A stretch of 41,501 bases of DNA from Acidimicrobiales bacterium (lineage in GTDB: Bacteria > Actinomycetota > Acidimicrobiia > Acidimicrobiales > SZUA-35): assembly GCA_024644005.1 (NCBI GenBank), contig JAHELU010000009.1:1-41501 (forward strand), in the 5' to 3' direction. Under the pieces are notes generated by a model. It searched no databases, was not told the origin of the DNA, and saw only the letters and a list, made by a program, of their open reading frames with translations. The first letter of the stretch is position 1. Each line of letters starts with the position of its first letter. This document shows, piece by piece, positions 12,290 to 39,157 of this stretch. The position numbers were made by a program, and so were the translations under genes.

Positions 12290-13867
12290 TCAGCCGGTGT
12301 CCTCTTCGGCGAGGCTGGTCCGCCGGATCTTGCCGGTCGGCGTGCGAGGCAGCTCGTCGACGAAGGTGATGTCGCGGGGAACCTTGTGCCTGGCCAGCTG
12401 GGCCGCAACCAGCTCCCGGATCTCGGTCGGTCCGAGCACGGCACCGGGAGCCGGGACGACGAACGCCGCGAGCCGTTGACCGAAGTCGGGATCGCTGACC
12501 CCGACCACCGCCGCATCGGCCACATCGGGATGGGCCAGCAGCACGTCCTCGACCTCTCCTGGGAACACGTTCTCCCCGCCGCTGATGATCATGTCGTCGG
12601 CCCGGCCGGTGACGAACAGCCTGCCCTCGCGGTCGAAGTACCCGACGTCGCCAGACGACATGCGACCGTCGATCACCTCCTTGGACCCACCGCCGGTGTA
12701 ACCGGAGAATTGAGCGGCGTTGCGAACGAATATCCGGCCCTCGATCCCCGGGGCGCACGCTCGTCCGTCGCGGTCGAGAATGACCACCTCCGATCCCGGC
12801 ACGACCCGACCGGCGGTACCGGGAGCAGCCAGGAGATCGGCGGGCGTGGCGATGGTGGCCTGCCCGACCTCGGTCGACCCGTACAGGTTGTAGAGGTGCT
12901 CGCCGACGCGATCCATCCATGCCGTGGCAACCGGAGCCGGCAGCGCCGAGCCGCTGGTGGCCACGATCCGCAACGTCGTCATCGCGCTCGGATCGATGTC
13001 CTCGTCAGCCAGTAGCCGCTGCAGCATGACCGGCACGACGGCGAGAACCGTGGCTCGATGCTCGATCACCGAGCGGACGGTCTGCTCGGTGGAGAACCGG
13101 GGCGAGACGATCACCGGTGAGCCGAGCGACGCGGCGATGATGAGCTGGCTGAGCCCCCAGGCGTGGAACAGGGGACAGGCGATGACGAAGATGTCGCCCT
13201 GTTGGTAGGGGATCAGGTTCATGATGCCGGACGCCGCTCGTGGGTCGGTCGCCGTGCCTCGCCTCGCCCCTTTCGGCACGCCGGTCGTTCCGGACGTGAG
13301 CAGCACCGGACTGCTGAGCCGGGGCAGCAGCAGGTTCGGGCGCCGGCGACCGATACGGCGGATCTCCCCGATCGAGTCCTGACCGTCGACCTGGCCGTCG
13401 GCGATGATGACGGGCCGGTCCCATCCGGCGGCCTCGGCGACGTGATGGAGGCTGGCATCACAGACCAGGCCGGCAACCTGCTCGCGCTCCAACACCTCGG
13501 CCAACTGGGGCCCGGCGAAGCCGGTGTTGAGGTAGACGGCGTTCAGGCCGGCCTTGGCCGCGGCGAGATTCGCCTCGACGAAGTCGCGATGGTTGTGGCA
13601 CAGGATCCCGATGTTGCGACCGGGTCGTAGCCCCTGAGCCGCCATGCCCTTGGCGAGCGAGCTCGAGCGGCGGTCGAGCTGGGCGAACCGCAGCGTTCCC
13701 CGGTGGTCGATGACGGCGGGTCGGTTCGGGTGGCGCAGCGCTGCGGCACCGTAGAAGGTCGCGATCGACGGGCCCCATCTGGTAGCGGCACCGGCCACCG
13801 AGGCCAGCCGGGCCGGGTCGAGGAGGCCCATTCTCCTCACCACGTCGAGCGATTCCCGTGCCCCCAT
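12290..13867 (-). CDS. Long-chain fatty-acid-CoA ligase-like AMP-binding protein
   Basis: 525 residues from the ATG at 13867 (MGARESLDVVRRMGLL). All core ANL motifs are intact: A3 LLTSGTTGVPKGARRG, A5 LYNLYGSTEVGQA, A7 MSSGDVGYFD, A8 VTGRADDMIISGGENVFPGEVE and A10 LPRTPTGKIRR. It should activate a fatty or other carboxylic acid to its CoA thioester. The ORF track extends to 14296, but that extension reads through the divergent promoter and antisense to the small Lys-rich protein gene, so it is rejected. A GGGAGG ribosome-site candidate lies about 10 nt before 13867. It heads a minus-strand group with plsC and a second ligase, and shares its 235-bp upstream region with the Lys-rich protein gene. 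Confidence 0.9.
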   Translation of the reverse strand: MGARESLDVVRRMGLLDPARLASVAGAATRWGPSIATFYGAAALRHPNRPAVIDHRGTLRFAQLDRRSSSLAKGMAAQGLRPGRNIGILCHNHRDFVEANLAAAKAGLNAVYLNTGFAGPQLAEVLEREQVAGLVCDASLHHVAEAAGWDRPVIIADGQVDGQDSIGEIRRIGRRRPNLLLPRLSSPVLLTSGTTGVPKGARRGTATDPRAASGIMNLIPYQQGDIFVIACPLFHAWGLSQLIIAASLGSPVIVSPRFSTEQTVRSVIEHRATVLAVVPVMLQRLLADEDIDPSAMTTLRIVATSGSALPAPVATAWMDRVGEHLYNLYGSTEVGQATIATPADLLAAPGTAGRVVPGSEVVILDRDGRACAPGIEGRIFVRNAAQFSGYTGGGSKEVIDGRMSSGDVGYFDREGRLFVTGRADDMIISGGENVFPGEVEDVLLAHPDVADAAVVGVSDPDFGQRLAAFVVPAPGAVLGPTEIRELVAAQLARHKVPRDITFVDELPRTPTGKIRRTSLAEEDTG

Positions 13868-13990
13868 GCGGTCCCGCCTCCCAACGGCTCTCACCCATCC
13901 TTGCAGACGGTCACCTGGATATGGAGATCTGCCGGCGGAGAATCCGCCGAGCAGCGATCCTGCGACCAGCGATCTCGCAGGCAAGATTTT

Positions 13991-14035
13991 GCGAACAATA
14001 CCACGCAAGGGCTTGGCATTGTTCGCTCTGCGAAC
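13991..14035. promoter_or_regulatory. Palindromic operator cluster (GCGAAC boxes)
   Basis: Three copies of the half-site GCGAAC occur. gcgaacaat (13991-13999) and attgttcgc (14018-14026) form a perfect 9-bp inverted repeat separated by 18 bp. GTTCGC-TCT-GCGAAC (14021-14035) is a perfect compact palindrome. The compact palindrome occupies the spacer of the promoter for the Lys-rich protein gene. The likely binder, by position, is the XRE regulator encoded one gene downstream. Confidence 0.7.
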
Positions 14036-14041
14036 TATAGT
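14013..14041 (+). promoter_or_regulatory. Sigma-70-type promoter of the Lys-rich protein gene
   Basis: TTGGCA (14013-14018), exactly 17 bp, then TATAGT (14036-14041): one of the best consensus matches in the window. Transcription would begin near 14048, leaving a ~55-nt leader with a good ribosome site. The GTTCGC-N3-GCGAAC palindrome fills the spacer, a position where a bound protein would block polymerase. Confidence 0.7.
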
Positions 14042-14102
14042 ACGTGCACGTAACCCACACCACATGCGCCACCCGCGGCGCTGCACAAGGAGAACCCCCA
14101 AC

Positions 14103-14474
14103 GTGAGTGTTGCCGAACAGATGACCGAGACCCAGGAACGAATCCTCTCCGAGGTCGAGAGCGCCCAGGACCGGATGATCGAGATGAACCAGCGCATCGC
14201 CGAGGCGATGACCAGGATGCTGCCGGGCGAGCGGTACCAGCTCCGGTCCCTTCCGGGGATGGGCGAGCTGCCGCACCCCAAGGAGCTCGTCGACACCTAC
14301 TTCGACTTCGCCGCCAAGATGACCGAGGCCAATCGCTCCTTCTACAAGGAGATGTTGGAGATCTGGGCGCCGGAGCAGCCGGCCGAGGACGTCGAGAAGA
14401 AGGCCACCAAGGCCACCAAGGCCACCAAGACCACCAAAGCCACCAAGAAGACCACCAAGGCCAAGAAGGCCTGA
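14103..14474 (+). CDS. HbhA/MLDS-like small protein with Lys-rich tail (putative lipid-granule protein)
   Basis: 123 residues from a GTG at 14103, preceded 9 nt upstream by AAGGAGA. Residues 1-90 are predicted helical and amphipathic (EQMTETQERILSEVESAQDR; VDTYFDFAAKMTEANRSFYK). The last 25 residues are a Lys/Ala/Thr repeat (KKATKATKATKTTKATKK) encoded by 9-bp DNA repeats. Small helical proteins with such tails in actinobacteria include HbhA and the lipid-droplet proteins MLDS and TadA of Rhodococcus, where the tail can bind DNA. An XRE regulator gene follows, as in the HbhA (Rv0474-Rv0475) and MLDS loci. Resemblance is by architecture and context, not clear sequence identity. A PHA phasin is an alternative. 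The ORF-track start at 13866 lies in the promoter. Confidence 0.75.
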   Translation: MSVAEQMTETQERILSEVESAQDRMIEMNQRIAEAMTRMLPGERYQLRSLPGMGELPHPKELVDTYFDFAAKMTEANRSFYKEMLEIWAPEQPAEDVEKKATKATKATKTTKATKKTTKAKKA

Positions 14475-14556
14475 CCGACCGAGGCCGTCGGCGGAGGGTG
14501 AGCGCCATGCTCTCCTCCGCCTTCGACCGCAGCTCGGCTCCCGAGACCCCGTTGAC

Positions 14557-14937
14557 ATGACAGAAGCGAAACGCGAGCACCTCGACGGCCTGGGTCAGTT
14601 CATCCGGGCCCAACGGCGCATGGCAGAGCTCTCCCAGCGCGAGCTGGCCAGGATCGCCCATGTCTCGGATGCGTACGTGAGCCAGCTCGAGCGCGGTATG
14701 CACGAGCCGACCGTGAAGGTCCTGCGCTCGATCGCCGCTGCCCTCGACATCCGGGCCAACACGATGCTTCGCTATGCCGGCTGGCTGGAGGACAGCGCCG
14801 GCGAGCAGGACGACGACGCCGACGAGCCCGACGTCGAGGCCGCCATCAGGGGCAGCCGTGAGCTGACGGAGCAACAGAAGCAGGCGCTGCTCTCCGTCTA
14901 CCGAGGCTTCGTCGAGTCGGGAGACGCGAGCGGGTGA
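14557..14937 (+). CDS. XRE-family transcriptional regulator (Rv0474/MLDSR-like)
   Basis: 126 residues. An HTH_3/XRE domain occupies residues ~10-70: LGQFIRAQRRMAELSQRELARIAHVSDAYVSQLERGMHEPTVKVLRSIAAALDI. The short acidic linker (EQDDDADEPDVEAA) and a C-terminal helix (LTEQQKQALLSVYRGFVES) probably mediate dimerisation. The DNA-binding part resembles the regulator beside HbhA in mycobacteria and MLDSR beside the droplet protein MLDS in Rhodococcus. It lies 82 bp downstream of the Lys-rich protein gene and is probably co-transcribed. The GTTCGC-N3-GCGAAC palindrome in that promoter is its most likely target, which would make this a self-regulating pair. No clear ribosome site is seen before the ATG. 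Confidence 0.88.
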   Translation: MTEAKREHLDGLGQFIRAQRRMAELSQRELARIAHVSDAYVSQLERGMHEPTVKVLRSIAAALDIRANTMLRYAGWLEDSAGEQDDDADEPDVEAAIRGSRELTEQQKQALLSVYRGFVESGDASG

Positions 14938-15027
14938 CCGCTCGTCGTTGCCCGGCCGCCCCGGTCGTGACGACCGGTACCCGCCGCTCGCGGGCCGAAT
15001 CGGAGAGCAACGGAACGGAGACTGAAC

Positions 15028-15906
15028 ATGCCAACCGCTGAGAACGACGGCGTCGTCATCGAATACGACACGATCGGCGATCCCGACGATCCGGCCGTGC
15101 TGCTCGTGATGGGCTTCACCATGCAGCTCACCGCCTGGGATCCTGCGTTCTGCCAGATGCTCGCCGACCACGGGCTGTTCGTCATACGATTCGACAACCG
15201 GGATGCCGGGCTGAGCACCAAGTCCGAAGGCCCGCCCCCGAACGTGCTGGCCCTGCTGGCCGCGGTCACGGCTGGTGGCACGGTGAGCGCCGAGGTCCCC
15301 TACACCCTGTCCCACATGGCCGCCGATGGCCTGGCCGTGCTCGACGCGCTCGCCATCGAGGCCGCTCACGCCGTCGGCGCGTCGATGGGGGGCATGATCG
15401 CTCAGCAGCTCGCGATCGAGCACCCCGGACGGACACTGTCGCTCACGTCGATCATGTCGACCACTGGGAACCCCCAGGTCGGCCAGGGTCGCCAGGAGGC
15501 GATTGCGGCGCTGTTCACCCCGCCGCCGACCGATCGTGAGGGGGCGATCGAGCGCGGGGTACGAGTGGGTGAGCTGGTCTCCGGCCCGCACTTCGACGAG
15601 GTCGAGGCCAGGATCCGGATCGCGCAGGCCTACGACCGCTCGTTCCACCCCCAGGGCGCACCCTTCCAGATGGCAGCCATAGCCAAGACCGGCGATCGGA
15701 CCGAGAGACTGAATCAGCTCGACGTACCGACCCTCGTCATACACGGCGAGCTCGATCCGCTCGTCGACGTCTCGGGGGGCGAGGCCACTGCCGCGGCCAT
15801 CCCCGGGGCCAAGCTCATGACCGTCGAGGACATGGGCCACGACCTGCCGAAGCCGCGCTGGGCGGAGATCACCGCCGCCATCGCCTCGATCGCAGGCAGG
15901 ATCTGA
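15028..15906 (+). CDS. Alpha/beta hydrolase
   Basis: 292 residues with a complete alpha/beta-hydrolase catalytic set: nucleophile elbow GASMGG, acid in HGELDPLVD and histidine in DMGHDLPKP. The fold opens with VLLVMGFTMQLTAWDPAF and FDNRDAGLSTK, typical of the family containing aclacinomycin methylesterase-like and other esterases. Substrate is unknown; an ester or lipid hydrolase is plausible in this neighbourhood. A GGAG ribosome site lies 8 nt before the ATG. A hairpin (15959-15984) follows the stop. No signal peptide, so cytoplasmic. Confidence 0.88.
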   Translation: MPTAENDGVVIEYDTIGDPDDPAVLLVMGFTMQLTAWDPAFCQMLADHGLFVIRFDNRDAGLSTKSEGPPPNVLALLAAVTAGGTVSAEVPYTLSHMAADGLAVLDALAIEAAHAVGASMGGMIAQQLAIEHPGRTLSLTSIMSTTGNPQVGQGRQEAIAALFTPPPTDREGAIERGVRVGELVSGPHFDEVEARIRIAQAYDRSFHPQGAPFQMAAIAKTGDRTERLNQLDVPTLVIHGELDPLVDVSGGEATAAAIPGAKLMTVEDMGHDLPKPRWAEITAAIASIAGRI

Positions 15907-15984: not shown

Positions 15985-16032
15985 GCAGCGACACTAGTCT
16001 GGGTGAGCGCGGCAGGAGTAGGCGAGGAATCC

Positions 16033-17010
16033 ATGTTGTCTTCGAACGGTCGTGGCCAGCCGCGCGTCACGCTGGTTCTCGGCGGCGGCTGGATCTTGGG
16101 CGGCTCCTTCCACGCCGGCGTGATCCTGGCCCTGCGCGATGCGCTCGGCATCGACGCCCGCCACGCCGTCACCGTTGTCGGCACCTCGTCCGGCGCAGTG
16201 GCCACGGCACTGATCGGGGCGGGTGTCAGCCCCGAAGACCTCTATCGCCGCGAGCACGGCCTCGCACTGTCCGAGCAGGGGCAGGAGCTGCTCGGCCGGG
16301 TTCGCCGTCGCTCGTCGGGGAACGACCGCCGGTCGATGCCCAACCCGTTGCCCGCCGCGCCCGGCGTGCTGGCCAGAGCCGCCTCCCGCTCGGGCCGGCA
16401 GGCGCCTGCCGCAATCGCCGCCGGCCTGCTGCCTCGGGGGACGGTGCCCCACAACCGGCTCCGCCACTACGTCGACGATCTGACAAACGCCTCGTGGCCA
16501 GACGGCCCGAATCTCCGCTTCTGTGCGATCGACATGCGCCGGGCCAGCCGGGTCGTCATCGACCGCTCGTGGCCGACGACACCGGGACTGGCGGTTGCGG
16601 CCTCCTGTGCGATCCCCGGACTGCATGCGCCGGTCAGGATAGGGGAGCTGGAGCTGCTCGACGGGGCGCTGCACTCGGCGGACAATCTCGACTGCGTGGC
16701 CGAGGACGAGTCCGATCTCATCGTCGTCAGCTCACCGCTCGCTGCAGACTCACCGGTCGACTGGGTGAGGCCCTTGGCCCTGCTGCGCAACACGGTGCGG
16801 CAGCGGACCGAGCTCGACCGCCGCACCGTCGACGGCCGGCCCGTCGTGGTGGTCCAGCCGGGCCCGACCGACGTCCGTGTCATGGGAGCCGACCTCAACG
16901 ACCGGCGGCGGCGGGGCGATGTGGCCAGGCGGGCCTACCTGACCGCCTGCGCTGCGCTCGCCGATGGCGGGCCGGACCGGGGTGGGCACCGGGTGGCCGG
17001 GCAAACCTGA
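16033..17010 (+). CDS. Patatin-like phospholipase/acylglycerol lipase
   Basis: 325 residues from the ATG at 16033. The family motifs are all present: Gly-rich oxyanion loop (LVLGGGWILGGSFHAGV), Ser nucleophile in G-x-S-x-G (VVGTSSGAVA) and the catalytic Asp in DGALHS. Patatin-like proteins use a Ser-Asp dyad to hydrolyse phospholipids or acylglycerols. The longest ORF starts with GTG at 16003, but a possible -10 box (TAGTCT, 15995-16000) would place transcription start after it, and a GAGGAA ribosome site precedes 16033. It lies between a hydrolase and a FadD gene and could release fatty acids from membrane or storage lipid for reactivation. No signal peptide. Confidence 0.88.
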   Translation: MLSSNGRGQPRVTLVLGGGWILGGSFHAGVILALRDALGIDARHAVTVVGTSSGAVATALIGAGVSPEDLYRREHGLALSEQGQELLGRVRRRSSGNDRRSMPNPLPAAPGVLARAASRSGRQAPAAIAAGLLPRGTVPHNRLRHYVDDLTNASWPDGPNLRFCAIDMRRASRVVIDRSWPTTPGLAVAASCAIPGLHAPVRIGELELLDGALHSADNLDCVAEDESDLIVVSSPLAADSPVDWVRPLALLRNTVRQRTELDRRTVDGRPVVVVQPGPTDVRVMGADLNDRRRRGDVARRAYLTACAALADGGPDRGGHRVAGQT

Positions 17011-18764: not shown

Positions 18765-20207
18765 TCAGGCCTCGGCGAGGAGCTCCTCGTAGGCCCGTTC
18801 CACGTCTTCGCGCAGCGCAGCGGGCTCTGTGATGGCCGCAGGATCGATGGTCATGGCCAGGTGCATCGTGTCGAGATAGGAGATGACGGCAACGATCATC
18901 GCGGACCCCGCGACAGGGCCCGGTGCGAAGATCCCGGTCATCTCGTGGCCACCGATGTAGAGCTGCTTGCTGGTCGACCGCACGTTGGTGGTCGCGAAAT
19001 CGATGCTGGCAGCCTGGGCCCTGGCCGTGCTCGTTGTCAACGAGGTCGGTAGCAGGTTCACCACCCCGGCCAGGCCCCCCATCATGCCACCTCCGTACAC
19101 CTTCGACCGCTGCTGCCCGACACGTTCCTGGACGGCCCGGACCCGGTCTTCGACGCTCATCGGGCCGGCCGGTACCTGCACACGGACCGGCGTGAAGGAG
19201 TTGCCCCCCTCGGCGCTGTCGGTTCTGGTCGAGACGACGAACGAGGTGTTGAACGCCTCGGCTGGGCGCCCCCGGGCCTCGTGATGGGCGACCGCTCCGT
19301 TGATCAGGCCGGTCATGAAGACATCGTTGACCGAGGCGTCGAGGGCCTTGGCCGCACGCTTGACGTCGCCGAGCGGGACCCGGAGGATCTCCAGGTGTCG
19401 GTGCCGGGAGCGTCCGGTCCACAGCGGCGAGCCGGCGTTGCCGGCGCCATCGTCCTGTCCCTGCTGGACTTGGGATGCCACCATGCGGCCGTACTTCTGC
19501 GCCGACTCCGCGGTGTCGAGCCAGATCCCGGGATCGGCTGCGGCGAGGGACGCTCTGGCCATGACGGCCCGGCCGATCTTCGGTGGCGTGGCCACGACGT
19601 CGACGGCCCGCTTCGACCAGCCGCTGCGGCCCCGCTCCCGTTCCTCGGCGGCGCACGTCTCGGCCACCAGCGCATCGAGATCGACCTCGTCCGGAACGGG
19701 CGTGTCCGGGTCACGGACCATGAACCGCTCCTGCATCCTGGCCATGCCGTAGCCGTCTGCGATGGAGTGGTGGAGCTTCATCAGCAGTGCCGAGCGGTCG
19801 CCGTCGAGCCCGCCGATCAGCGTCACCTGCCACAGTGGCCTGGTCCGGTCGTAGGGCTCCTGCATGGCCAGGGCGACGTAGTCCAGGAGCCCACGCTCGC
19901 TCCGATCGCCGGCGAGGACGACGTGGCGGTAGTGGTACCGGAAATCGAACTCGGGATCGGCGGCCCAGGTCGGCCGCTCGTATCGACCGATGCCCGGCAT
20001 CACTCGCTCCCGCAACCGGGGTAGGGCGGCAACCGCCGCACGGAGCCACCGCTCGAACACCTCGCCGTCGACGTCGCCGTCGATGATGCTGAGCGACCCG
20101 CCGCTCGGGTTCAGCCACGGGTCCTTCTCGATGTTCCACATCAGGGCTTCGGCCGGCGACATCTGGCGCTCGAAGCGCGATCCTCGTCCCTGCGATTCGG
20201 AGCTCAT
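18765..20207 (-). CDS. WS/DGAT acyltransferase, type B (distal gene)
   Basis: 480 residues, wax ester synthase/acyl-CoA:diacylglycerol acyltransferase family. The active-site motif HHxxxDG is present as KLHHSIADG (His146, His147, Asp151). The N-terminus carries MSPAEALMWNIEKDPWLNPS, which defines the type B pair here, and the C-terminal condensation-like half has ASVNDVFMTGLINGAV. These enzymes transfer an acyl group from acyl-CoA to diacylglycerol (TAG) or fatty alcohol (wax ester) at the membrane or droplet. The start is fixed by the ATGA overlap with the preceding type A gene. It is the last gene of the operon. The 801-residue ORF in the track is a false extension into that gene. Confidence 0.93.
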   Translation of the reverse strand: MSSESQGRGSRFERQMSPAEALMWNIEKDPWLNPSGGSLSIIDGDVDGEVFERWLRAAVAALPRLRERVMPGIGRYERPTWAADPEFDFRYHYRHVVLAGDRSERGLLDYVALAMQEPYDRTRPLWQVTLIGGLDGDRSALLMKLHHSIADGYGMARMQERFMVRDPDTPVPDEVDLDALVAETCAAEERERGRSGWSKRAVDVVATPPKIGRAVMARASLAAADPGIWLDTAESAQKYGRMVASQVQQGQDDGAGNAGSPLWTGRSRHRHLEILRVPLGDVKRAAKALDASVNDVFMTGLINGAVAHHEARGRPAEAFNTSFVVSTRTDSAEGGNSFTPVRVQVPAGPMSVEDRVRAVQERVGQQRSKVYGGGMMGGLAGVVNLLPTSLTTSTARAQAASIDFATTNVRSTSKQLYIGGHEMTGIFAPGPVAGSAMIVAVISYLDTMHLAMTIDPAAITEPAALREDVERAYEELLAEA

Positions 20208-21676
20208 GCCTTGCGCCTCTTCAGCTTCAAGGCCTTGAAGAGCGTGTCGATCTCCTCGAGGTGGAGATCGACCAGGAGCTCCAGATCGGGGACGAGCTCC
20301 CGGCACGAGACGAGTCCGATGTCGAGCGTGTCGAGGTAGCTGTGGACCGTGATGTTGAGCCCCATGCCCTCGGCGATGGTGGAGACCGGGTAGTAGTGCT
20401 GCATCTCGGCACCGGCGACGTACAGCGGTTGACGGGGACCCGGGACGTTGGAGATGACGACGTTCACCACCGGATTGGTCTGGTCGGCCAGTCTCATCGA
20501 GCTGGCGAGCCTCGCGGCCTGGACGGCCAGTGCCGGCGAGGAGAAGTTGGCCAGATCGACCAGGGCGTCGGCAGGCACCATCTCGAACTGGTCCTTCGCC
20601 GCCTCCATCGCCACCCGCGTGACCTCGATCCGCTCGAGCGGGTCGTCGACGTTGGTCGGCAGCGCGGCCACGAGTCCCGAGACGCGATTGGTCCATCGGT
20701 CCGCCTCGTCCCCGGTCCGGATCGAGACCGGGACCATGGCCTGGAGCGGTTCCTCCGGGAGGGCGTCGTGGTGGAGGAGGTACTGTCGCAGCGCGCCGGC
20801 ACAGATCGCCATGACCACGTCGTTGACGGTGGCACCGGCCTTGGTCTTGAGCTTCTTGATGTCGCTCAGTGGCACGGAGCGCATGGCCAAGCGACGGTGC
20901 GGGGTGATCGACCGGTTGAACGGCGTCCGCGGGGCCGTCATCGACGGGGTCCCGAGCTGATCGTCGCCGTTGGTCGATGATCTTCGGGACCTCGGCAGCT
21001 GCCGCCTGGCATTGGCCACCATGGTCTCCAGCCCCCGGTTGCGGGTGATCTCGGCCATCTGCTGCAAGGCATTGAGCTGGACTCTGGCCAGTCGAGCCGG
21101 CCGTCTCATGTAGGAGCTGACCGTGCGGCTCAACAGCTCGAGGTCGGTCGGGATCGAGTCGGGCTTCCACACGCCCTTGTCCGGCGCGATCTCGTCACCG
21201 GCCGGATCGGCGTCCAGCAGGATCGTCAGGAGCTCGACGCCGGAAGCACCGTCGACGGTGGCGTGATGGATCTTGGTCAGCACGGCGAAGTCGTCGTCCT
21301 CGAGGCCTTCCATGACGTAGGCCTCCCACAGCGGCTTGCTCCGGTCCATGGGCCGACCGATGATCCTCGCCACCTGGGCCGCCAGTTGCTCGAGGTCACC
21401 CGGTGGGGGAATGGCGATGTGGCGAACGTGGAAGTCGATGTCGAAGTCGGGATCGTTGATCCAGTAGGGGTGATCCAGTCCCATCGGGACCTCGACCAGC
21501 CGGCGGCGGAACGGATCCAGCAGGTGCAGCCGGCTCTCGACCTGGGCCTTGAAGGCCTCGTACGGCTGGTAGTCCGGGGTGGGGCGACGATAGATGCCGA
21601 GCCCGCTCACGTGCCCGAACGACCTCGGCGTCTCCATGTAGAGGAAGCTGGCGTCGAGTCCGGTCAGTTGTTTCAT
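20204..21676 (-). CDS. WS/DGAT acyltransferase, type A (distal gene)
   Basis: 490 residues. Active-site motif KIHHATVDG (His137, His138, Asp142) is intact. It starts MKQLTGLDASFLYMETP, the common N-terminus of actinobacterial WS/DGATs, and has the later conserved NVVISNVPGPRQPLYVAGA segment and KAGATVNDVVMAICAGAL. The expected reaction is TAG or wax ester formation from acyl-CoA. Both ends are translationally coupled: its start overlaps the gpsA stop by 4 bp (ATGA) and its stop overlaps the start of the type B gene by 4 bp. It is the paralogue of the type A gene at 26153-27658; the two A genes are each followed by a type B gene. Confidence 0.95.
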   Translation of the reverse strand: MKQLTGLDASFLYMETPRSFGHVSGLGIYRRPTPDYQPYEAFKAQVESRLHLLDPFRRRLVEVPMGLDHPYWINDPDFDIDFHVRHIAIPPPGDLEQLAAQVARIIGRPMDRSKPLWEAYVMEGLEDDDFAVLTKIHHATVDGASGVELLTILLDADPAGDEIAPDKGVWKPDSIPTDLELLSRTVSSYMRRPARLARVQLNALQQMAEITRNRGLETMVANARRQLPRSRRSSTNGDDQLGTPSMTAPRTPFNRSITPHRRLAMRSVPLSDIKKLKTKAGATVNDVVMAICAGALRQYLLHHDALPEEPLQAMVPVSIRTGDEADRWTNRVSGLVAALPTNVDDPLERIEVTRVAMEAAKDQFEMVPADALVDLANFSSPALAVQAARLASSMRLADQTNPVVNVVISNVPGPRQPLYVAGAEMQHYYPVSTIAEGMGLNITVHSYLDTLDIGLVSCRELVPDLELLVDLHLEEIDTLFKALKLKRRKA

Positions 21677-22737
21677 CGGTCTTCTCCGGGGGAGGTCGGT
21701 TGGCTGGCGAGCGCGGCCTCGATGAGGCCGTGGAGCTCGTGGATCGACTCGGTGGGACGACCGAGCTCGAACGCCTCGGCTGGGGTCGCAAGGCCGTTGA
21801 CGACGAGGTGGACCAGGTTGATGAGTGGGGTCTGAACACTTGTCCGTCGAGCCAGTTCCAGCATGTTGTCGACGCTCTTCACCCCTTCGGCCACCATGTT
21901 GGTGGTGGCGGAGATCTCCTCGACGGTCCGGCCCGCCGCCAGCTCCCGGCCGAAGTGATGGTTGCGGCTCTCAGAGCTGAGGCAGGTGGCCACGAGGTCG
22001 CCCTGGCCGGCCAGGCCGAGGAACGTCTCGGGTCGGGCGCCGAGGGCCGAGCCCAGGGACGCCATCTCGACCAGGCCCCGACAGATCAGCGCCGAGATCG
22101 AGTTGTGCCCGTGGTCGAGCCCAGCTGCGATACCGGCGGCGACGGCGATGACGTTCTTGATGGAGCCGCCGAGCTCGCAGCCGATGATGTCATCATTGGT
22201 GTACACATCGAATCGGGGACCGCTGAACACCGGCTGCAGCCCGTGGGCCAGGTCGAGGTCCCGGAAGGCCAGCACGGTCGCCGCCGGCTGGCCGCGCACG
22301 ATCTCACGGGCCAGGTTCGGTCCGCTGAGGACCCCGACGGTCTCGTGCCCGCCGAGTGCCTCGCCGATCACCTGTGTCGGTCGCAGCAGCGTCTCGTCCT
22401 CGATGCCCTTGGAGAGGCTGACGATCGGGACCGTCGGCGCCACCGAGCCACGAAGCCCGCCGACGACACGTCGGATGTACTGCGTCGGCACGGCGACGAC
22501 GATCAGCGAGATGTCCCGGGCGGCCTCGTGGATGTCGCCGGTGGCCCGCAGGGCAGGTGGCAGCTGAACCTCCGGGTGGAACAGCGGGTTCTCGTGCCGC
22601 TGGTTCACCGCCTCGACGATCTCGTCCTCGAGGGCCCAGAGGGTCACCGCATGACCGTGCTCGGCCAGGAGGGCCGCCATCGCCGTGCCCCACGAGCCGG
22701 CGCCGATCACCGCCACTCGTTTGTACTCGTCGCTCAT
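21673..22737 (-). CDS. gpsA: Glycerol-3-phosphate dehydrogenase [NAD(P)+] GpsA
   Basis: 354 residues. An N-terminal Rossmann fold starts with VAVIGAGSWGTAMA. Family signatures follow: SLSKGIEDETLL, VLSGPNLAREI, the catalytic-lysine segment CELGGSIKNVIAVAAGIA, and GLAGQGDLVATCLSSESRNH. GpsA reduces dihydroxyacetone phosphate to sn-glycerol-3-phosphate, the backbone of phospholipids and TAG. Placement inside a WS/DGAT operon is unusual and suggests a dedicated supply of backbone for storage lipid; whether another gpsA exists in the genome cannot be seen. Its ATG overlaps the stop of the Lys-rich protein gene, and its stop overlaps the next WS/DGAT start, each by 4 bp. Confidence 0.95.
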   Translation of the reverse strand: MSDEYKRVAVIGAGSWGTAMAALLAEHGHAVTLWALEDEIVEAVNQRHENPLFHPEVQLPPALRATGDIHEAARDISLIVVAVPTQYIRRVVGGLRGSVAPTVPIVSLSKGIEDETLLRPTQVIGEALGGHETVGVLSGPNLAREIVRGQPAATVLAFRDLDLAHGLQPVFSGPRFDVYTNDDIIGCELGGSIKNVIAVAAGIAAGLDHGHNSISALICRGLVEMASLGSALGARPETFLGLAGQGDLVATCLSSESRNHHFGRELAAGRTVEEISATTNMVAEGVKSVDNMLELARRTSVQTPLINLVHLVVNGLATPAEAFELGRPTESIHELHGLIEAALASQPTSPGEDR

Positions 22738-23264
22738 CCGGCCTTCTTCGAACCGGCCCGCTTGGCGCCGGCCTTCTTGGAACTGGTCTTCTTCGGGCCG
22801 GCCTTTTCCGGGCCGGCCTTCTGGCCGTCGTCGGTGTCGGCCGGGGTTTCGTCTGCCCGATCGGCAGAGGAGTCGGAACTGCCGCGGCGGAGACCCTGCC
22901 CCGTCATCAGGGCCATGATGTTGGCGAACGGCTCCTGGTAGGCGACGATCTGCTCGCCGGCCAGCGCCAGTCGCTCGGCCGTGATCTCGATGTGAGCCAG
23001 CCGATCGTCGAGCTCGCTGAGCTGTTGGCGCTGCTCCGCCAGCTCGGCTCGCAACGCCTCGATCTGGGCCAGGGGGGGACCGAACGCGTCCATCATGTCG
23101 CTCATGGCCTTGACGGCGTCCGTCGGGAACATCAGCTGGGAGATGCCGTCGAGCACGGCCTGGCGCTGTTCTGCCGACATCGTGTAGCGGGCGAACGACT
23201 CCTGCATCCGCCGGAGCGCGTCGCGTCCGGCCTGGATCGTGTCGAGGAAATCGGGCTCAGCCAT
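22734..23264 (-). CDS. Coiled-coil protein with Lys-rich tail (putative lipid-droplet/phasin-like protein)
   Basis: 176 residues from MAEPDFLDTIQAG; the ORF-track start at 23300 adds 12 residues inside the upstream gene. Residues ~1-110 are helical, with a heptad-rich stretch (IEALRAELAEQRQQLSELDDRLAHIEITAERLAL) predicted as coiled coil. An acidic Ser/Asp linker follows. The last ~35 residues are a Lys/Ala/Gly tail (KKTSSKKAGAKRAGSKKAG) like histone H1 or HbhA. This plan fits granule-associated proteins such as phasins, PhaF/PhaM-like or MLDS-like proteins, which combine a surface-binding helix with a DNA-binding tail. It overlaps the WS/DGAT stop by 8 bp and the gpsA start by 4 bp, so it belongs to the lipid operon. 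Function is inferred from architecture and context only. Confidence 0.75.
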   Translation of the reverse strand: MAEPDFLDTIQAGRDALRRMQESFARYTMSAEQRQAVLDGISQLMFPTDAVKAMSDMMDAFGPPLAQIEALRAELAEQRQQLSELDDRLAHIEITAERLALAGEQIVAYQEPFANIMALMTGQGLRRGSSDSSADRADETPADTDDGQKAGPEKAGPKKTSSKKAGAKRAGSKKAG

Positions 23265-24729
23265 CGAGCACCACACCTCCAGCGGCGAGGAGCTCGCCAT
23301 AGGCTTCGGTCATGCAGTCGGTCAGGTCGCCGGGGTCGTCGACTGCAGCAGGGTCGATGAACATCCCGATGTGCAGGTTCCCGTTGTAGGAGATGGTCGT
23401 CATGTTGAAGGCGGTACCGGCCACCGGACCCATGGTGACGGTCTCCAGGACCTCTGCGCCGGACATGAAGGTGGGGAACGGAGCGGCTCGCAGGTTGGAG
23501 GTGGCGAAATCCATCTTGGCCGCCTGCGACCTGGCGAGCTGGGTCACGACCGATGTCGGCATCAGGTTGGCCAGACCGGCGAGACCGCTGAGGGCCCCCT
23601 CGCCGCTGATCGCCTCCCGCTTGGCCGCCATGCGGTCCCGAACGTCGTGGAGGCGCTCCTCCGGTGACAGGTCGCCGCCCGGGATCTGAACCGGGGTCGG
23701 GGTGAAGGAGTTGCCGCCGATCGCCTTGTCGCTCCTGGTGCTGACCACGAAGCTGATGTTGAGTGCCTCGACCTCGGTTTCGCGGCGGGAGTGATAGGCC
23801 AGGGCGCCGTTGACGGCCCCGGCGACGAACATGTCGTTGACGCTGGCCCCCATGGCCTTGCCGGCGGCCTTGACCGCGTCGAGCGGGATGACCAGCGACT
23901 CGAGGTGTCGCCGGCGCGATCGGTTGGTCCACAGCGGTGAGCCGCCGGCGGTTCCGCCTTCTGCCGGGCTGAGTTGCCTGACCGCCTCGCCGACGTTTCC
24001 GACGAGGTCGCCGACCACGTCCTGGGCACGACTGGGATCGGCCGACCACAGCGCCGCCTCGCCCATCGCCCGCTTGGCGATCCCGGCCTGCCGCCGCCAG
24101 ACGTGGCCGAGCGACTGGGTGGCGGAGCCGAGGGTCGACGCCCGCTCGCCTCCCCGGTCCTCGTCCCCCTCTGCGGCGATCGCCTCCTCGATCACGCGAT
24201 CGAGGTCGACGGCGGGGGGCAGATCTGCTTCTCGCTCGGCCTCCATGTACAGCTCGGACAACCGGACGGCCCCGATGCCGTCGGTTATCGAGTGGTGCAT
24301 CTTGGTGAACAGAGCCCCTCGCCCGCCCTCGACGCCGTCGATGACCACGAAGAGCCACAGCGGGCGGGTCCGGTCGTAGGGGTCCTCATAGAGCTGGGTG
24401 GCGAGATCGTAGAGCTGGCGAATGGTGCCCGGGGCCGGTAGCCCGATGTGGCGGAGGTGGTAGCCGAGGTCGAACTCGGGGTCCGTCGACCACGTCGGGG
24501 GCGACAGCCGGCCGAAGCCGGACACCACTCGCTCCCGGAGCCGAGGGATCTTGGACACCGCATAGGCCATTCGATGGCGGAGCTGGTCGACGTCGATCGG
24601 TCGATCGAGCACCGAGACCATGGCGCCGCTCGGGTTGAGCCAGGGGTCCTTCTCGATGTTCCACATCAGGGCTTCGGCATCGGACATCTTGCGCTCGAAG
24701 CGCTGCTCTCGTTCTGGGCGTTCTGCCAT
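23257..24729 (-). CDS. WS/DGAT acyltransferase, type B (proximal gene)
   Basis: 490 residues. The motif KMHHSITDG (His145, His146, Asp150) is intact. The N-terminus RKMSDAEALMWNIEKDPWLNPSG is nearly identical to that of the distal type B enzyme, and the C-terminal half matches it closely (SFVVSTRSDKAIGGNSFTP; ATSNLRAAPFPTFMSGAE), marking a duplicated pair. It should acylate diacylglycerol or a fatty alcohol using acyl-CoA. The start lies 8 bp after the stop of the HAD-PlsC gene, and the stop overlaps the start of the coiled-coil protein gene by 8 bp, so expression is coupled. A Lys/Arg-rich N-terminus (AERPEREQRFERK) could help membrane association. Confidence 0.94.
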   Translation of the reverse strand: MAERPEREQRFERKMSDAEALMWNIEKDPWLNPSGAMVSVLDRPIDVDQLRHRMAYAVSKIPRLRERVVSGFGRLSPPTWSTDPEFDLGYHLRHIGLPAPGTIRQLYDLATQLYEDPYDRTRPLWLFVVIDGVEGGRGALFTKMHHSITDGIGAVRLSELYMEAEREADLPPAVDLDRVIEEAIAAEGDEDRGGERASTLGSATQSLGHVWRRQAGIAKRAMGEAALWSADPSRAQDVVGDLVGNVGEAVRQLSPAEGGTAGGSPLWTNRSRRRHLESLVIPLDAVKAAGKAMGASVNDMFVAGAVNGALAYHSRRETEVEALNISFVVSTRSDKAIGGNSFTPTPVQIPGGDLSPEERLHDVRDRMAAKREAISGEGALSGLAGLANLMPTSVVTQLARSQAAKMDFATSNLRAAPFPTFMSGAEVLETVTMGPVAGTAFNMTTISYNGNLHIGMFIDPAAVDDPGDLTDCMTEAYGELLAAGGVVLDG

Positions 24730-24737
24730 CTTCTTCC

Positions 24738-26156
24738 TCAGGTGTCGGTGCCGGGCCGACGATCGGCCTCTTCTTTCGGGTTACCGGCATAACCCGGCGG
24801 ATAGGTCAGCGCCAGCTCTTCCTCGGTCGGCGTGTGGGGGATCCTGGCCTCGGGGGGCAGCAGGTCCACGATGGCCGACATGATCCGCTTCGTGTCGGCA
24901 TCCACGCTGCGGTAGCGGAGCTCGACCGGTGGTCCGACCCTGACCGTGATCATCGGCGGATCGGTGGTGTCCATGTTCGGCAGACGCTGGCTGCGAGGCC
25001 ACACCTTCTCGGTGCCCCACAGCCCGACCGGGATGACCGGGGCCTTCGTCGCGTGGGCCAGTCGAGCAGCACCCCACCGGCCCTTGAGCTCGGTCTCGAA
25101 GAACGCCGGACCTCGAGGGATCGTGCCCTGGGGCGCCATCGAGATCAGCTGACCCGCCTGGAGTGCCTGGATGGCCGCCTCCAGTGGTTCGTCGGACCCG
25201 GTGCCTCGATCGACCCGGATGCCGCCCATCATCTTCGACAGCTGACCGATGATCGGCGCATCGAACACCTCCTTCTTGCCGAGGAACCGGGCCGGTCGGC
25301 CCGCCTTGGCCAGCGTGAAGTTGACGGCGCTCGAGTCGAAGTAGCTGCGATGGTTGAACACCACGATGGCCGCTCCCTCCTTGGGGATGTGCTCGGTGCC
25401 CTCGATGTCGAACCTCGCGTTGGCTGCCAGCTCGGGCCGGTTGAGCGGGCGCAGCCAGTCCTGGAGCTCCCGGCCGGCCACCTTGACCACGCCGGGGGGG
25501 ACGTCGAGGTGACGGATCGGCCAATCGTTGAGCCTGGCCACGATCGTCAGCTGGGCGTCGGGATTCACCGCCACCGGGTGGCCGACGGTCCGCAGCATCG
25601 GGACGTCGTACACGCTGTCGGAGTACGCATAGCTGGCGCCGAGGTCGATCTTGTGCTCCCTGGCCCAGTGCTTGATGGCGGTCATCTTGTTCCGGCCCCA
25701 CAGGAAGCGGCCCTCGAGATGACCGGAGTAGACGTCGCCGTCGGTGGCCCACTCGGTGGCGAAGACGTGCTCCATGCCCAACCGGTCGGCCAGCGGCTGG
25801 ACGAAGCAACGAGGGCTGGTGGTGGCCAGCACGGGGAGCCGGCCGGCTTCCCTGTGCTCCTCGATGAGGATGCGACCATAGGGCTGGACCCGCTCGATGA
25901 GCTCCTCGGCTGCCGCCTCCATGGCCTTGGCGACATCCACGATCGGCCACCCCTTGGCCCCCCGTACGGCGTAGCGGGCCGCCTGCATGGCGAACGGGTT
26001 CTCGCCGACGAGCTCGTACACCTTGTAGAGGGCGTCGACGGCGGGGATCTGGGGTGTGCTCGAGACACCGGCCTCGGCGAGATGGTGCTGGAACACCGGG
26101 GCGGTGGATCCGGCGATCAACGTCCGATCGAGGTCGAAGATGGCGAGTGCGGTCAT
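24738..26156 (-). CDS. HAD-IB phosphatase / PlsC acyltransferase fusion
   Basis: 472 residues from MTALAIFDLDRTLIAG. Residues 1-~230 are a HAD subfamily IB hydrolase: nucleophile Asp8 and acid Asp10 in DLDRT, TTSPRCF, and the acidic YSDSVYDVPML. Residues ~240-450 are a glycerolipid acyltransferase with NHRSYFD (His269, Asp274) and a family-specific APQGTIPRGPAFFETELKGRWG. Mycobacterial Rv2483c has the same fusion, annotated as phosphoserine phosphatase plus 1-acylglycerol-3-phosphate acyltransferase. In this operon a lipid phosphate is a more logical HAD substrate, since no phosphatidate phosphatase is otherwise seen; that is inference. The ATG overlaps the WS/DGAT stop by 4 bp. The ORF-track start at 26252 lies in that gene. 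Confidence 0.92.
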   Translation of the reverse strand: MTALAIFDLDRTLIAGSTAPVFQHHLAEAGVSSTPQIPAVDALYKVYELVGENPFAMQAARYAVRGAKGWPIVDVAKAMEAAAEELIERVQPYGRILIEEHREAGRLPVLATTSPRCFVQPLADRLGMEHVFATEWATDGDVYSGHLEGRFLWGRNKMTAIKHWAREHKIDLGASYAYSDSVYDVPMLRTVGHPVAVNPDAQLTIVARLNDWPIRHLDVPPGVVKVAGRELQDWLRPLNRPELAANARFDIEGTEHIPKEGAAIVVFNHRSYFDSSAVNFTLAKAGRPARFLGKKEVFDAPIIGQLSKMMGGIRVDRGTGSDEPLEAAIQALQAGQLISMAPQGTIPRGPAFFETELKGRWGAARLAHATKAPVIPVGLWGTEKVWPRSQRLPNMDTTDPPMITVRVGPPVELRYRSVDADTKRIMSAIVDLLPPEARIPHTPTEEELALTYPPGYAGNPKEEADRRPGTDT

Positions 26157-27658
26157 CTGGTCTCCTGGGTTCTCTTGGAGGATGTACGGGATCTGCGGGA
26201 GGTTCGGACGAGCTCGGCCGCCGCCTCCTCGATGCTGCCCATCAGCGGCCACAGGTCGTCGATCGCGTCCCGGCAGGCGAGGAGGCCGAAGTCGATCGAG
26301 CCGTTGTAGGACGACAGCGTGATGTTGAGCCCCGCCCCGTCGGTGATCACCGGCACGGGGAAGGAGGCGACGAGGGGGGCGCCGGAGCAGAACAGCCGGT
26401 ACTGGGGACCGGGGATGTTCGAGATCACGACGTTGAACGGCGGGTTCGTCATGTCGGCCAGCTTGGTCCTGGCCACCAGCCTGGCCACCCGGGCCGCAAC
26501 GGCCGGCGGTGCGAACTGGGCGAAGTCCTGCAGGGTGTCGGCCGGCAGGGCGGCGTGCTCGGTCTTGGCCAGCTCCATGGCCTCATGCGCCAGCCGAAGC
26601 CGTTCGAGGGGATCTGGTCGGTTCGTCGGCAGGGGAGCGATCATCGCAGAGATGCGATTGCCGGGCCGGCGGGAGTCGACGTCCGTTCTCACCGAGACGG
26701 GCACCATCGCCAGTACGGGATCGGTCGGGAGCTCGTGGCGGCTCTCCAGCCAGGTCTGGAGGGCGCCGGCGCAGATGGCCATGATGACGTCGTTGACCGT
26801 GACCCCGTGGCGGTCCTTGATCTCCTTCACCTCGTCGAGGGAGATGGAGCCGAAGGCATAGCGACGGTGGGCCGAGATGGACCGGTTGAACGACAAGCGA
26901 GGCGCAGCCAGGGCCGGTCGCGACAGGAAGTCGTCCGGCTGGTCGGGCTCCGGTACGAGATGGGCGAGACCGGGCGTCCGCTGCATTGCTTCCTGGATCG
27001 TGGCCACGGTTGGCGCCACCTGCCTGCGACCGGTCTGGAGCGCAGCCGCCAGGACTCGGCGCTGCAGCCTGACCTGGAGCCTCGGCTGGGTGGCCAGGGC
27101 GGCGAGGCCCCGGCCGAGCATCTCCATCGTGCTCGGGACGCGATCGGGACTCCAGGGCACGGCCTGGGCCGCCGCAGGCCGACTGTCGGCGCCGGTGTCG
27201 AGGAGCGTGGTCAGGACCTCCGTGCCGGTGATCCCGTCGACACAGGCGTGGTGGATCTTGGTGTACTGGGCAATCAGCCCGCCCTGGAGGCCCTCGATCA
27301 GGTACAGCTCCCACAGGGGTCGAGAGCGGTCGAGGGGACGACCGTGGAGCCGGCCGATCAGCTCGGCCAGCTTGGCGTCGTCTCCCGGTCGTGGTACGGC
27401 GATGTGACGGACATGGAAGTCGAGGTCGAACTCCTCGTCCTCGATCCAGTAGGGCCGATCGATCCCGAACGGGACCGTCATCAGCCGTCGACGGAACGGA
27501 ATCAGCTCGTGGAGCCGCTCCTCGACCAGCTGCTTCACCGAATCCAGGGTCATGGCGGCGTCGCCGGGGTCGAACAGGGCGAGGAACCCGACGTGGCCGT
27601 GGACCGTCGGCGTCTCGATGTTGAGGAAGTTGGCGTCGAGGCCACCGAGCTGCTCCAC
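26153..27658 (-). CDS. WS/DGAT acyltransferase, type A (proximal gene)
   Basis: 501 residues from a GTG at 27658 (VEQLGGLDANFLNIETP). The motif KIHHACVDG (His136, His137, Asp141) is intact. HGVTVNDVIMAICAGALQTW and FNVVISNIPGPQYRLFCSGA correspond to segments of the distal type A enzyme. The expected reaction is acyl transfer to diacylglycerol or fatty alcohol. The start codon shares one base with the TAG of the upstream hydrolase (TAGTG), and the stop overlaps the HAD-PlsC start by 4 bp. The C-terminus ends in a basic tail (RTSRRSRTSSKRTQETR) not seen in the other copies. The 623-residue ORF in the track is an extension through the hydrolase gene in another frame. Confidence 0.94.
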   Translation of the reverse strand: MEQLGGLDANFLNIETPTVHGHVGFLALFDPGDAAMTLDSVKQLVEERLHELIPFRRRLMTVPFGIDRPYWIEDEEFDLDFHVRHIAVPRPGDDAKLAELIGRLHGRPLDRSRPLWELYLIEGLQGGLIAQYTKIHHACVDGITGTEVLTTLLDTGADSRPAAAQAVPWSPDRVPSTMEMLGRGLAALATQPRLQVRLQRRVLAAALQTGRRQVAPTVATIQEAMQRTPGLAHLVPEPDQPDDFLSRPALAAPRLSFNRSISAHRRYAFGSISLDEVKEIKDRHGVTVNDVIMAICAGALQTWLESRHELPTDPVLAMVPVSVRTDVDSRRPGNRISAMIAPLPTNRPDPLERLRLAHEAMELAKTEHAALPADTLQDFAQFAPPAVAARVARLVARTKLADMTNPPFNVVISNIPGPQYRLFCSGAPLVASFPVPVITDGAGLNITLSSYNGSIDFGLLACRDAIDDLWPLMGSIEEAAAELVRTSRRSRTSSKRTQETR

Positions 27659-28614
27659 TAGCCCGCCCCGTTCTCTTCGCCGTCTGCGGCCCCGCCGGTG
27701 GCCTTGGGGTTGGGCCGAGGGAACCCCGGGCGTCGAGTGCCGGGGCGATGGAACGGCTGCCACTCGTGGATCGGCTGAGCGAGGCGGTCGGCGACGACGT
27801 AGATCGCCATCGGATTGCTGGGCAGACCGATGTGACTGCCGACCACCTCGACGTTCTCCACCGGGCCCGTGGAGCGATCGAGGCAGGACCGCCAGGCGAC
27901 GACACCGTCGCTCTTCGAGAAGATCGATGTGGTCGGAACCGGTGGGGCCTCGGCCATGCGCGCCGCGAAGTCGGCCGGGAGCGACGAGACCCGGGTCCCG
28001 CTGGCAGCCTCGAACATCGGCCACACGTGGTTGGCCTTGAGGTCGTTGATGGGAGATCCGAGCGTGACGACGAAGCGCACCCGCTCGGGGGTGAACCGCG
28101 CCACCTCTCTGGCGTAGACCCCGCCGAGGCTGTGGCCGATCAGCGTCACCGGTTGGCCCCGCTCGTCACTGACCTCGTGGACCCGGTCGGCCGCGACGTG
28201 CACGAGCCGATGGAGGCCGAGCACCTCGGGATGACCCCAGGGATGGACGTCGTAGCCACGGTTGCCGAGGAATCGTCGCAGCCCGACGGTGAACTGATCG
28301 GCGGCGCCGAACGGCGGCAGCACGATGATGGGGTGACCGTCGCCCTTCGGCAGCCGGGTCAGGAGCGGGCTCGACAGCAGCCCCAGCGCCCCCTCGAGCG
28401 CAGCGCGGCCCTCGAGCGCCATCAGTAGCGGGTTCGGTGCCTTCGTTGCGGGCTGTGCCCTCGACTGTGCCGTCGACTGTGCCGTCGACTGTGCGGTCGG
28501 CTGTGCCGTCGACTGTGCGGTCGAGTCCGCGGAGTCGGGAGTCGAGTGCGCCGTGGTGTGCGCAGGCGGATCGGCCGGCGGATCAGGGCTGGAAGCGGGA
28601 GTCGAGCGGACCAC
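27658..28614 (-). CDS. Alpha/beta hydrolase (lipase/esterase-like), first gene of the lipid operon
   Basis: 318 residues from a GTG at 28614. The first ~60 residues are low complexity, including six copies of TAQ(S/P) encoded by a 12-bp DNA repeat. The fold starts at HPIIVLPPFGAADQFTV; the nucleophile elbow is LIGHSLGGVYA, with SKSDGVV as a possible acid region and GSHIGLPSNP holding the likely histidine. A related gene lies at 36162-36788. In this context a storage-lipid hydrolase or an acyltransferase-like esterase is plausible. No signal peptide is evident. No ribosome site is visible; with a possible -10 element TAAGCT about 11 nt upstream the transcript may be nearly leaderless. A start at the Met of LLMALEGRAALEG (residue 65) would exclude the repeats. 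Confidence 0.82.
   Translation of the reverse strand: MVRSTPASSPDPPADPPAHTTAHSTPDSADSTAQSTAQPTAQSTAQSTAQSRAQPATKAPNPLLMALEGRAALEGALGLLSSPLLTRLPKGDGHPIIVLPPFGAADQFTVGLRRFLGNRGYDVHPWGHPEVLGLHRLVHVAADRVHEVSDERGQPVTLIGHSLGGVYAREVARFTPERVRFVVTLGSPINDLKANHVWPMFEAASGTRVSSLPADFAARMAEAPPVPTTSIFSKSDGVVAWRSCLDRSTGPVENVEVVGSHIGLPSNPMAIYVVADRLAQPIHEWQPFHRPGTRRPGFPRPNPKATGGAADGEENGAG
28451..28522. repeat. Six 12-bp tandem repeats inside the hydrolase gene
   Basis: The unit gactgtgccgtc is repeated six times without gaps, with one to a few base changes per copy. On the coding (minus) strand it encodes the TAQ(S/P) tetrapeptide. The period of 12 keeps the frame, so copy-number change would alter linker length without breaking the protein. 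Confidence 0.9.
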
Positions 28615-38780: not shown

Positions 38781-39149
38781 ATGGCACGGACGGCACCAAC
38801 ATGGCGCAAGCTCTTCGATTCGTGGGAGAAGGCCGTTGCCCCTGGGCTCGAGGACCTGACGGCATCGTCGGAGTTCCGTGACGTGATGGCGCTGGTCACC
38901 AGGTGGAACGCGGCGATGGCCAAGCAGACCGAGCAGGCCTCCCGCCGATGGCTGCATCTCTGGAACCTCCCCGCTGCCAGCGACGTTCGCCGGTTGCGCC
39001 GCCAGATCTCCGAGCTCGACGACGAGGTGGCCGCCCTCCGGAAGGCTCTGCGGTCGGCGGTCGATGCCGACACGGCCGACCGGCTGCTGCGCCTCACCGC
39101 GCTCGACGTCGATTCCCCGTCGGACGGCTTCGTCCGATCGTCCAACTAG
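38781..39149 (+). CDS. PhaE-like / PHA synthase-associated small protein
   Basis: 122 residues with GGAGG about 7 nt before the ATG. The C-terminal half contains WLHLWNLPAASDVRRLRRQISELDDEVAALRKAL, reminiscent of the C-terminus of class III synthase subunit PhaE (an N-[LM]-P-[ST] turn followed by a basic heptad helix). The N-terminal half (WRKLFDSWEKAVAPGLEDL; WNAAMAKQTEQASRRW) is amphipathic. It lies 8 bp upstream of phaC. It may act as a short PhaE substitute needed for synthase activity, or as a phasin. It is much shorter than canonical PhaE (over 300 residues), so the assignment rests on context plus this segment. Confidence 0.65.
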   Translation: MARTAPTWRKLFDSWEKAVAPGLEDLTASSEFRDVMALVTRWNAAMAKQTEQASRRWLHLWNLPAASDVRRLRRQISELDDEVAALRKALRSAVDADTADRLLRLTALDVDSPSDGFVRSSN

Positions 39150-39157
39150 GAGCCGAC

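Follow-up and report, generated by a model that had tools for sequence, protein, structure and literature searches.

A small-protein/XRE gene pair of Actinomycetota as a probable granule-coat system under its own control, with a regulator akin to those of the HbhA and MLDS loci

Introduction

The closest described counterpart of the locus analyzed here is the MLDS-MLDSR pair of Rhodococcus jostii RHA1 (TadA of R. opacus). It consists of a small helical protein with a Lys tail and an adjacent XRE regulator, 18-bp TGC...GCA palindromes precede the operon, and the setting is one of storage lipids. Lipid droplets (LDs) sequester MLDSR, and its published box is GNT(T/A)GCTNNTGCTANC (PMC5504291). 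In mycobacteria, HbhA is partnered by Rv0474, an XRE protein of the same superfamily, and carries C-terminal Lys/Ala repeats. HBHA, a protein of about 200 aa that contains a long coiled coil, is exposed on the surface as well. It influences lipid inclusions (PMC6176652). In the PhaP-PhaR system of Proteobacteria, the granule titrates the repressor of the granule-coat gene (PMC3079617).

A two-gene locus was analyzed at positions 14103-14937 of the window, i.e., the whole studied stretch of 41,501 nucleotides from an Acidimicrobiales bacterium (contig JAHELU010000009.1). It resembles MLDS-MLDSR in its small helical protein with a Lys tail, adjacent XRE regulator of the same superfamily, 18-bp palindromes and storage-lipid setting, HbhA-Rv0474 in its XRE superfamily partner and Lys/Ala-rich C-terminus, and PhaP-PhaR in its proposed logic. 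In a literature search that had most subscription journals outside its reach, no description of this small gene/XRE pair was found. Here, it is argued that the conserved pair is probably a granule-coat system that regulates itself. Through the regulator, it shares kinship with the HbhA and MLDS loci, from which it is nevertheless separate.

Results

The first gene of the pair (14103..14474, + strand, 372 bp) encodes a small helical protein of 123 aa, the granule-coat candidate, which was characterized by its conserved relatives and an AF2 model. The choice of GTG as its start codon is backed by the Shine-Dalgarno site AAGGAG (14087..14092, +), read from the sequence, and by L096, the closest relative, whose gene also begins with GTG. 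The second gene (14557..14937, +) follows after a gap of 82 bp and encodes an XRE regulator of 126 aa (Pfam HTH_3 E 7.6e-13), the conserved partner and probable autorepressor. Each gene is present in one copy in the genome, of which the assembly is 83% complete.

Both products are conserved proteins and not chance open reading frames. Of 39 same-family genomes, 12 contain a relative of the tail-free core, and a profile search across the class found one in 33 of 296 genomes; an XRE gene adjoined the small-protein relative in all but one of the same-family loci. With the XRE alone as query, 80 named actinobacterial loci were retrieved from GTDB genomes, and a small-protein relative lay beside the XRE in 71 of them, although such counts are not independent because the loci are related by descent. 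The small gene was located directly upstream on the same strand in 63/68 loci with resolved coordinates, at distances of -2 to 210 nt, while in five Pseudonocardia loci it was located downstream of the XRE gene. Apparent exceptions were L121, L138 and L150, which hold divergent or damaged relatives of the small protein, and L104 and L108, which stop at a contig edge. Judged by record titles, the pair occurs in Acidimicrobiia, Nocardioidaceae, Mycobacterium, Skermania, Pseudonocardia, Streptosporangiaceae and Nitriliruptorales. In some genomes, a further XRE subfamily is encoded about 2.5-3 kb from the pair (L145, 11014-11557; L150, 6525-6963).

The region upstream of the pair contains the sole promoter-like site in 13850-15100, a sigma-70 promoter TTGGCA-N17-TATAGT (14013..14041, +), where 0 were expected. 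Two operators are predicted around it, neither with an assigned strand. The distal operator TGCGAACAATACCACGCA (13990..14007) lies just upstream of the -35 element and the proximal operator TGCGAACTATAGTACGTG (14029..14046) overlaps the -10 element. They are the best and second-best PWM matches in the window, with 24.6 and 17.0 bits, respectively, compared to at most 4.7 bits outside the locus; the PWM had been trained on other genomes, with the window sites left out. The distal site is also rare in the genome: the pattern TGCGWRN6YWCGCA, which covers it, has a single match in 4.46 Mb, at 13990. A perfect repeat, GTTCGCTCTGCGAAC (14021-14035), was first taken as the operator, but relatives conserve two TGC-N12-GCA elements instead.

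The two window sites are 39 bp apart, and no other spacing is as frequent in the family (15 site pairs at 39 bp and 9 at 40 bp). Many genomes have an 18-bp palindrome ahead of the small gene, typically TGCGTAGTAAAGTACGCA. Upstream of the small genes, 34 palindromic TGC-N12-GCA sites were observed, compared to 0.9 expected from the rest of the loci. A PWM site above the 95% shuffle level was present in 68/69 upstream regions of homologous genes, a figure that is partly circular because most of those regions supplied PWM training sites; the PWM test in the window and the count of 34 vs. 0.9 are free of that circularity. AT-rich forms of the operator were almost confined to the pair locus in the other genomes searched, and an operator overlapping the -10 element, with the same promoter element, was seen in homologous upstream regions from Acidimicrobiia to Mycobacterium. 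Read from its sequence, the control region has the hallmarks of an autoregulatory circuit that is dedicated and narrow, and autoregulation of the small gene/XRE unit is well supported. Position, co-conservation and the MLDSR precedent point to the XRE as the protein that would bind the operators and act as repressor.

HbhA/MLDS-type loci were recovered with an XRE profile and recognized by their own sequence and the adjoining XRE. The window regulator has the marks of the superfamily, an XRE HTH and a C-terminal LTxxQKxxLLxxYxSF extension, and a profile of window-type XREs matched the XREs beside HbhA/MLDS-type genes over nearly their full length (E about 1e-24 to 1e-33). Several HbhA/MLDS-type loci carry TGCTTGC-N4-GCTAGCA before the XRE gene (8 sites in 22 loci, 0.6 expected) and are assigned to the MLDSR type because this element fits the published MLDSR box. 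The MLDSR-type site likewise has 18 bp and TGC/GCA ends. Thus, the resemblance of the XRE to Rv0474 and MLDSR, which the earlier note had pointed out, reflects a true relationship that extends to operator geometry.

The same note had also taken the locus as the HbhA/MLDS gene pair with a much shorter protein, and here the data disagreed. In the XRE tree, the window regulator belonged to a clade of 104 rows without any HbhA/MLDS-associated XRE (98/95), and the HbhA/MLDS-associated XREs formed a separate clade without any small-gene regulator (96/80). Forcing the window XRE into the HbhA/MLDS group lowered lnL by 47 and was rejected (AU p 0.0077). Both kinds of XRE were found in three Mycobacterium genomes, Skermania, Antrihabitans, a Nocardioidaceae genome and Pseudonocardia dioxanivorans, and both partner genes were also found by profile in those Mycobacterium, Skermania and Nocardioidaceae genomes. 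Gene order is reversed, since the XRE precedes the HbhA/MLDS-type gene, whereas in the window the small gene comes first. The MLDSR sites are adjacent within 43 bp, compared to the 39 bp between the window sites. The MLDS core comprises about 220 aa, compared to about 95 in the window protein, and hhalign of the tail-free core against HbhA/MLDS gave probabilities of only 3% (55-sequence alignment) and 13% (close relatives), with 0.1% for a reversed control. As judged from sequence profiles, the effector cores are not detectably homologous. Separate clades, coexisting loci and the hhalign result indicate that the regulators are paralogous relatives and that the window pair does not count among the HbhA/MLDS loci.

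The small protein consists of a two-helix core (aa 1-98) and a Lys/Ala/Thr tail (aa 99-123, nt 14397-14471), KKATKATKATKTTKATKKTTKAKKA, which is encoded by a 9-bp tandem repeat. AF2 (55 sequences) predicted a helical hairpin, with helices at 3-39 and 59-88 (pLDDT about 80-90), and a disordered tail; for the model as a whole, mean pLDDT was 75 and pTM 0.41. Both helices are strongly amphipathic, with whole-helix moments of 0.50 and 0.44 compared to 0.17 and 0.16 after shuffling, and both have a negative net charge. As in phasins, the protein is small, amphipathic and helical, although amphipathic hairpins are common in many non-granule proteins.

No Pfam or NCBIfam model reached its threshold for the small protein or its family. 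Matches of the window protein to DASH_Dad4, XseA and Exonuc_VII_L were discarded as sub-threshold coiled-coil or Lys-tail noise. Phasin_2 was the Pfam family most often grazed (6/55 relatives, best E 0.01, below the cut-off). The window protein itself had no match to Phasin (PF09361 Phasin_2 / TIGR01841) above the curated cut-off, and no Phasin_2 protein exceeded the cut-off in 61 Actinomycetota genomes or in a Niveispirillum plasmid. The family thus differs from PhaP, as its Phasin_2 matches stay below threshold, and PhaR is not known to be an XRE protein. A Foldseek search against the PDB gave no match, and a PDB sequence search with the core returned weak matches only, designed helical bundles among them. 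Since no family model reached threshold and no PDB fold matched, a granule role would rest on context and helix character.

The tail is variable within the family. A C-terminal Lys/Ala-rich repeat, as in HbhA, MLDS and TadA, is present in the window protein and absent from the close relatives L096 and L098, and none of the PHA-context members has at least 8 Lys in the last 30 residues. Thus, the Lys tail cannot define the family. It coincided with WS/DGAT neighbors (11/18 compared to 0/13 in PHA context), a coincidence confounded by shared ancestry, with only 2 independent pairs.

A second Lys-tailed helical protein is encoded at 22734-23264 (- strand), between a glycerol-3-phosphate dehydrogenase gene and a WS/DGAT gene. 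That the two Lys-tailed proteins are different held, as their cores are unrelated (hhalign 0.2%); they are not of equal standing, because the second is much rarer, with relatives in only 4/39 family genomes. In its relative L207, the tail is preceded by a strongly acidic stretch, and tail composition varies. The product may be a clade-specific droplet protein. The suggestion that one of the two serves TAG droplets and the other PHA granules found no support, since the coincidence of tail and WS/DGAT is inseparable from shared ancestry; the window PHA synthase has a PhaE-like partner at 38781-39149 rather than a Lys-tailed one.

The proximity of the pair to storage-lipid genes, likewise noted before, was confirmed by its neighborhood. 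Downstream follow genes for an alpha/beta hydrolase (15028..15906, +), a 71-74% identical copy of which lies near the pair in L096/L097, and a patatin-like lipase (16003..17010, +), with patatin relatives in 17/80 pair loci. One of four WS/DGAT acyltransferases in the window is encoded at 20204..21676 (-; Pfam PF03007 E 4.5e-71). Within the fetched DNA, WS/DGAT was present in 19/80 loci, commonly with patatin, PlsC and glycerol-3-phosphate dehydrogenase. As the genomes checked contain only 1-10 WS/DGAT copies, a chance gene would have one nearby in roughly 1-2%, an estimate to be read with the loci not being independent. About half of the pair loci have neither WS/DGAT nor PhaC within the DNA fetched.

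WS/DGAT, patatin and PlsC neighbors are found in Acidimicrobiia, and PHA synthase neighbors in other lineages and Mycobacterium. Nine of ten sampled PHA synthase neighbors matched class I, II or III models best, while the tenth (L134) was PHA synthase/depolymerase-like. In L127, less than 14 kb of DNA accommodates the pair together with a WS/DGAT and a PhaC that shares 70% identity with the window PhaC. A multidomain acetyl-CoA carboxylase of the same kind as that at 30599-36124 of the window neighbors the pair in 7 loci.

Further features of the window concern storage metabolism. A dense neutral-lipid cluster at 18765-28024 contains the four WS/DGATs, i.e., half of the eight matches in the genome, together with a HAD-PlsC fusion and glycerol-3-phosphate dehydrogenase. 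The carboxylase at 30599-36124 (+) is a single chain of 1841 aa with biotin carboxylase, biotinyl, ACC_central and carboxyltransferase domains, and in Mycobacterium, Nocardioidaceae and others a copy with 51-70% identity is located right beside the small-gene/XRE pair. At 38781-40276, a PhaE-like protein of 122 aa followed by a class III-type PhaC forms a stripped-down PHA synthase pair; the former (38781-39149) matches only the C-terminal end of class III PhaE (TIGR01834 E 1.1e-10). In the Mycobacterium loci L153, L156 and L159, a tail-less family member and its XRE lie next to the multidomain acetyl-CoA carboxylase, in L153 and L156 also with a PHA synthase, and all three have a separate HbhA locus.

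Discussion

The reading preferred here, with a confidence somewhat above even, is that the two genes of 14103-14937 form an autoregulatory unit dedicated to a surface protein of storage granules, which would be repressed by the XRE and released when granules sequester this repressor. Context and modeled helix character suggest that the small protein would fold into an amphipathic helical hairpin and coat neutral-lipid droplets, which in the source genome would most likely consist of TAG/wax ester made by the adjacent WS/DGATs. The disordered Lys tail may add binding to anionic partners, e.g., DNA or phospholipid head groups. The XRE would bind the two 18-bp TGC-N12-GCA operators, of which one covers the -10 element and the other lies immediately 5' of the -35 element, and repress its own operon. 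By analogy with MLDSR and PhaR, accumulating granules may be the signal: they would sequester the XRE, which would free the promoter and allow more coat protein to be made. An unnamed coat family with a regulator of a sister XRE clade, employing a logic already known from MLDS-MLDSR and PhaP-PhaR, is the best reading of these comparisons.

The small protein could instead belong to the nucleoid or histone-like DNA-binding proteins and compact DNA with its Lys tail, the lipid genes being bystanders. HBHA itself is reported to be nucleoid-associated (PMC10665949), and the Histone H1-like HC2 and Rv3852-family models match a few long-tailed members via the tail. However, this reading is unlikely, because the tail is dispensable: L096, L098 and all PHA-context members lack a Lys-rich tail yet keep the core, the partner and the operators. 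The negative net charge of both helices also speaks against it. That the locus is a true HbhA/MLDS-type locus with a shortened protein would account for the related regulators, the similar operator ends, the Lys tail and the storage context, but it is very unlikely given the separate XRE clades (AU p 0.0077), the presence of both locus types in one genome, a core homology not above noise and the reversed gene order.

Equally improbable is that the small protein acts as a PHA-synthase subunit or activator of the PhaE/PhaR type and not as a coat protein. Although many Actinomycetes have PhaC beside the pair and another part of the window encodes a PhaE-like protein, many pair loci contain only TAG genes, and the small protein has no PhaE/PhaR match. 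Moreover, the PhaC neighbors are mostly of class I, and class I PhaC is not known to need a subunit. A toxin-antitoxin-like module, with the small protein next to an autoregulating XRE antitoxin, is the least probable of these alternatives. A small open reading frame, an XRE gene and palindromic operators over the promoter are the usual architecture of such modules, and NCBIfam antitoxin models match the HTH weakly; yet these matches are far below the cut-off and explained by the HTH alone. A single copy in the genome, a storage-gene association that is stable across the whole phylum, and an amphipathic hairpin without a match to a toxin family also contradict this explanation.

Extended beyond the window, the preferred granule-coat reading leads to a broader proposal, which is held tentatively and at somewhat less than even confidence. 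A single unnamed family of hairpin coat proteins, every member paired with a granule-sensing XRE repressor and a conserved operator, might serve storage granules of different chemistry across Actinomycetota. In Acidimicrobiia, where a Lys tail is frequent, these would be TAG/wax-ester droplets, whereas tail-less members would serve PHA granules in Mycobacterium, Pseudonocardia and others. This system would run parallel to the HbhA/MLDS system.

For annotation, caution is indicated: a Lys-tailed protein beside an XRE gene is not always HbhA or MLDS, and some mycobacteria have both kinds. If the proposed reading is right, a granule-coat family with a dedicated regulator is predicted for a phylum in which few such proteins are known (MLDS/TadA, HBHA). 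In that case, its exact operator would be defined, and TAG and PHA storage would be linked by one protein family.
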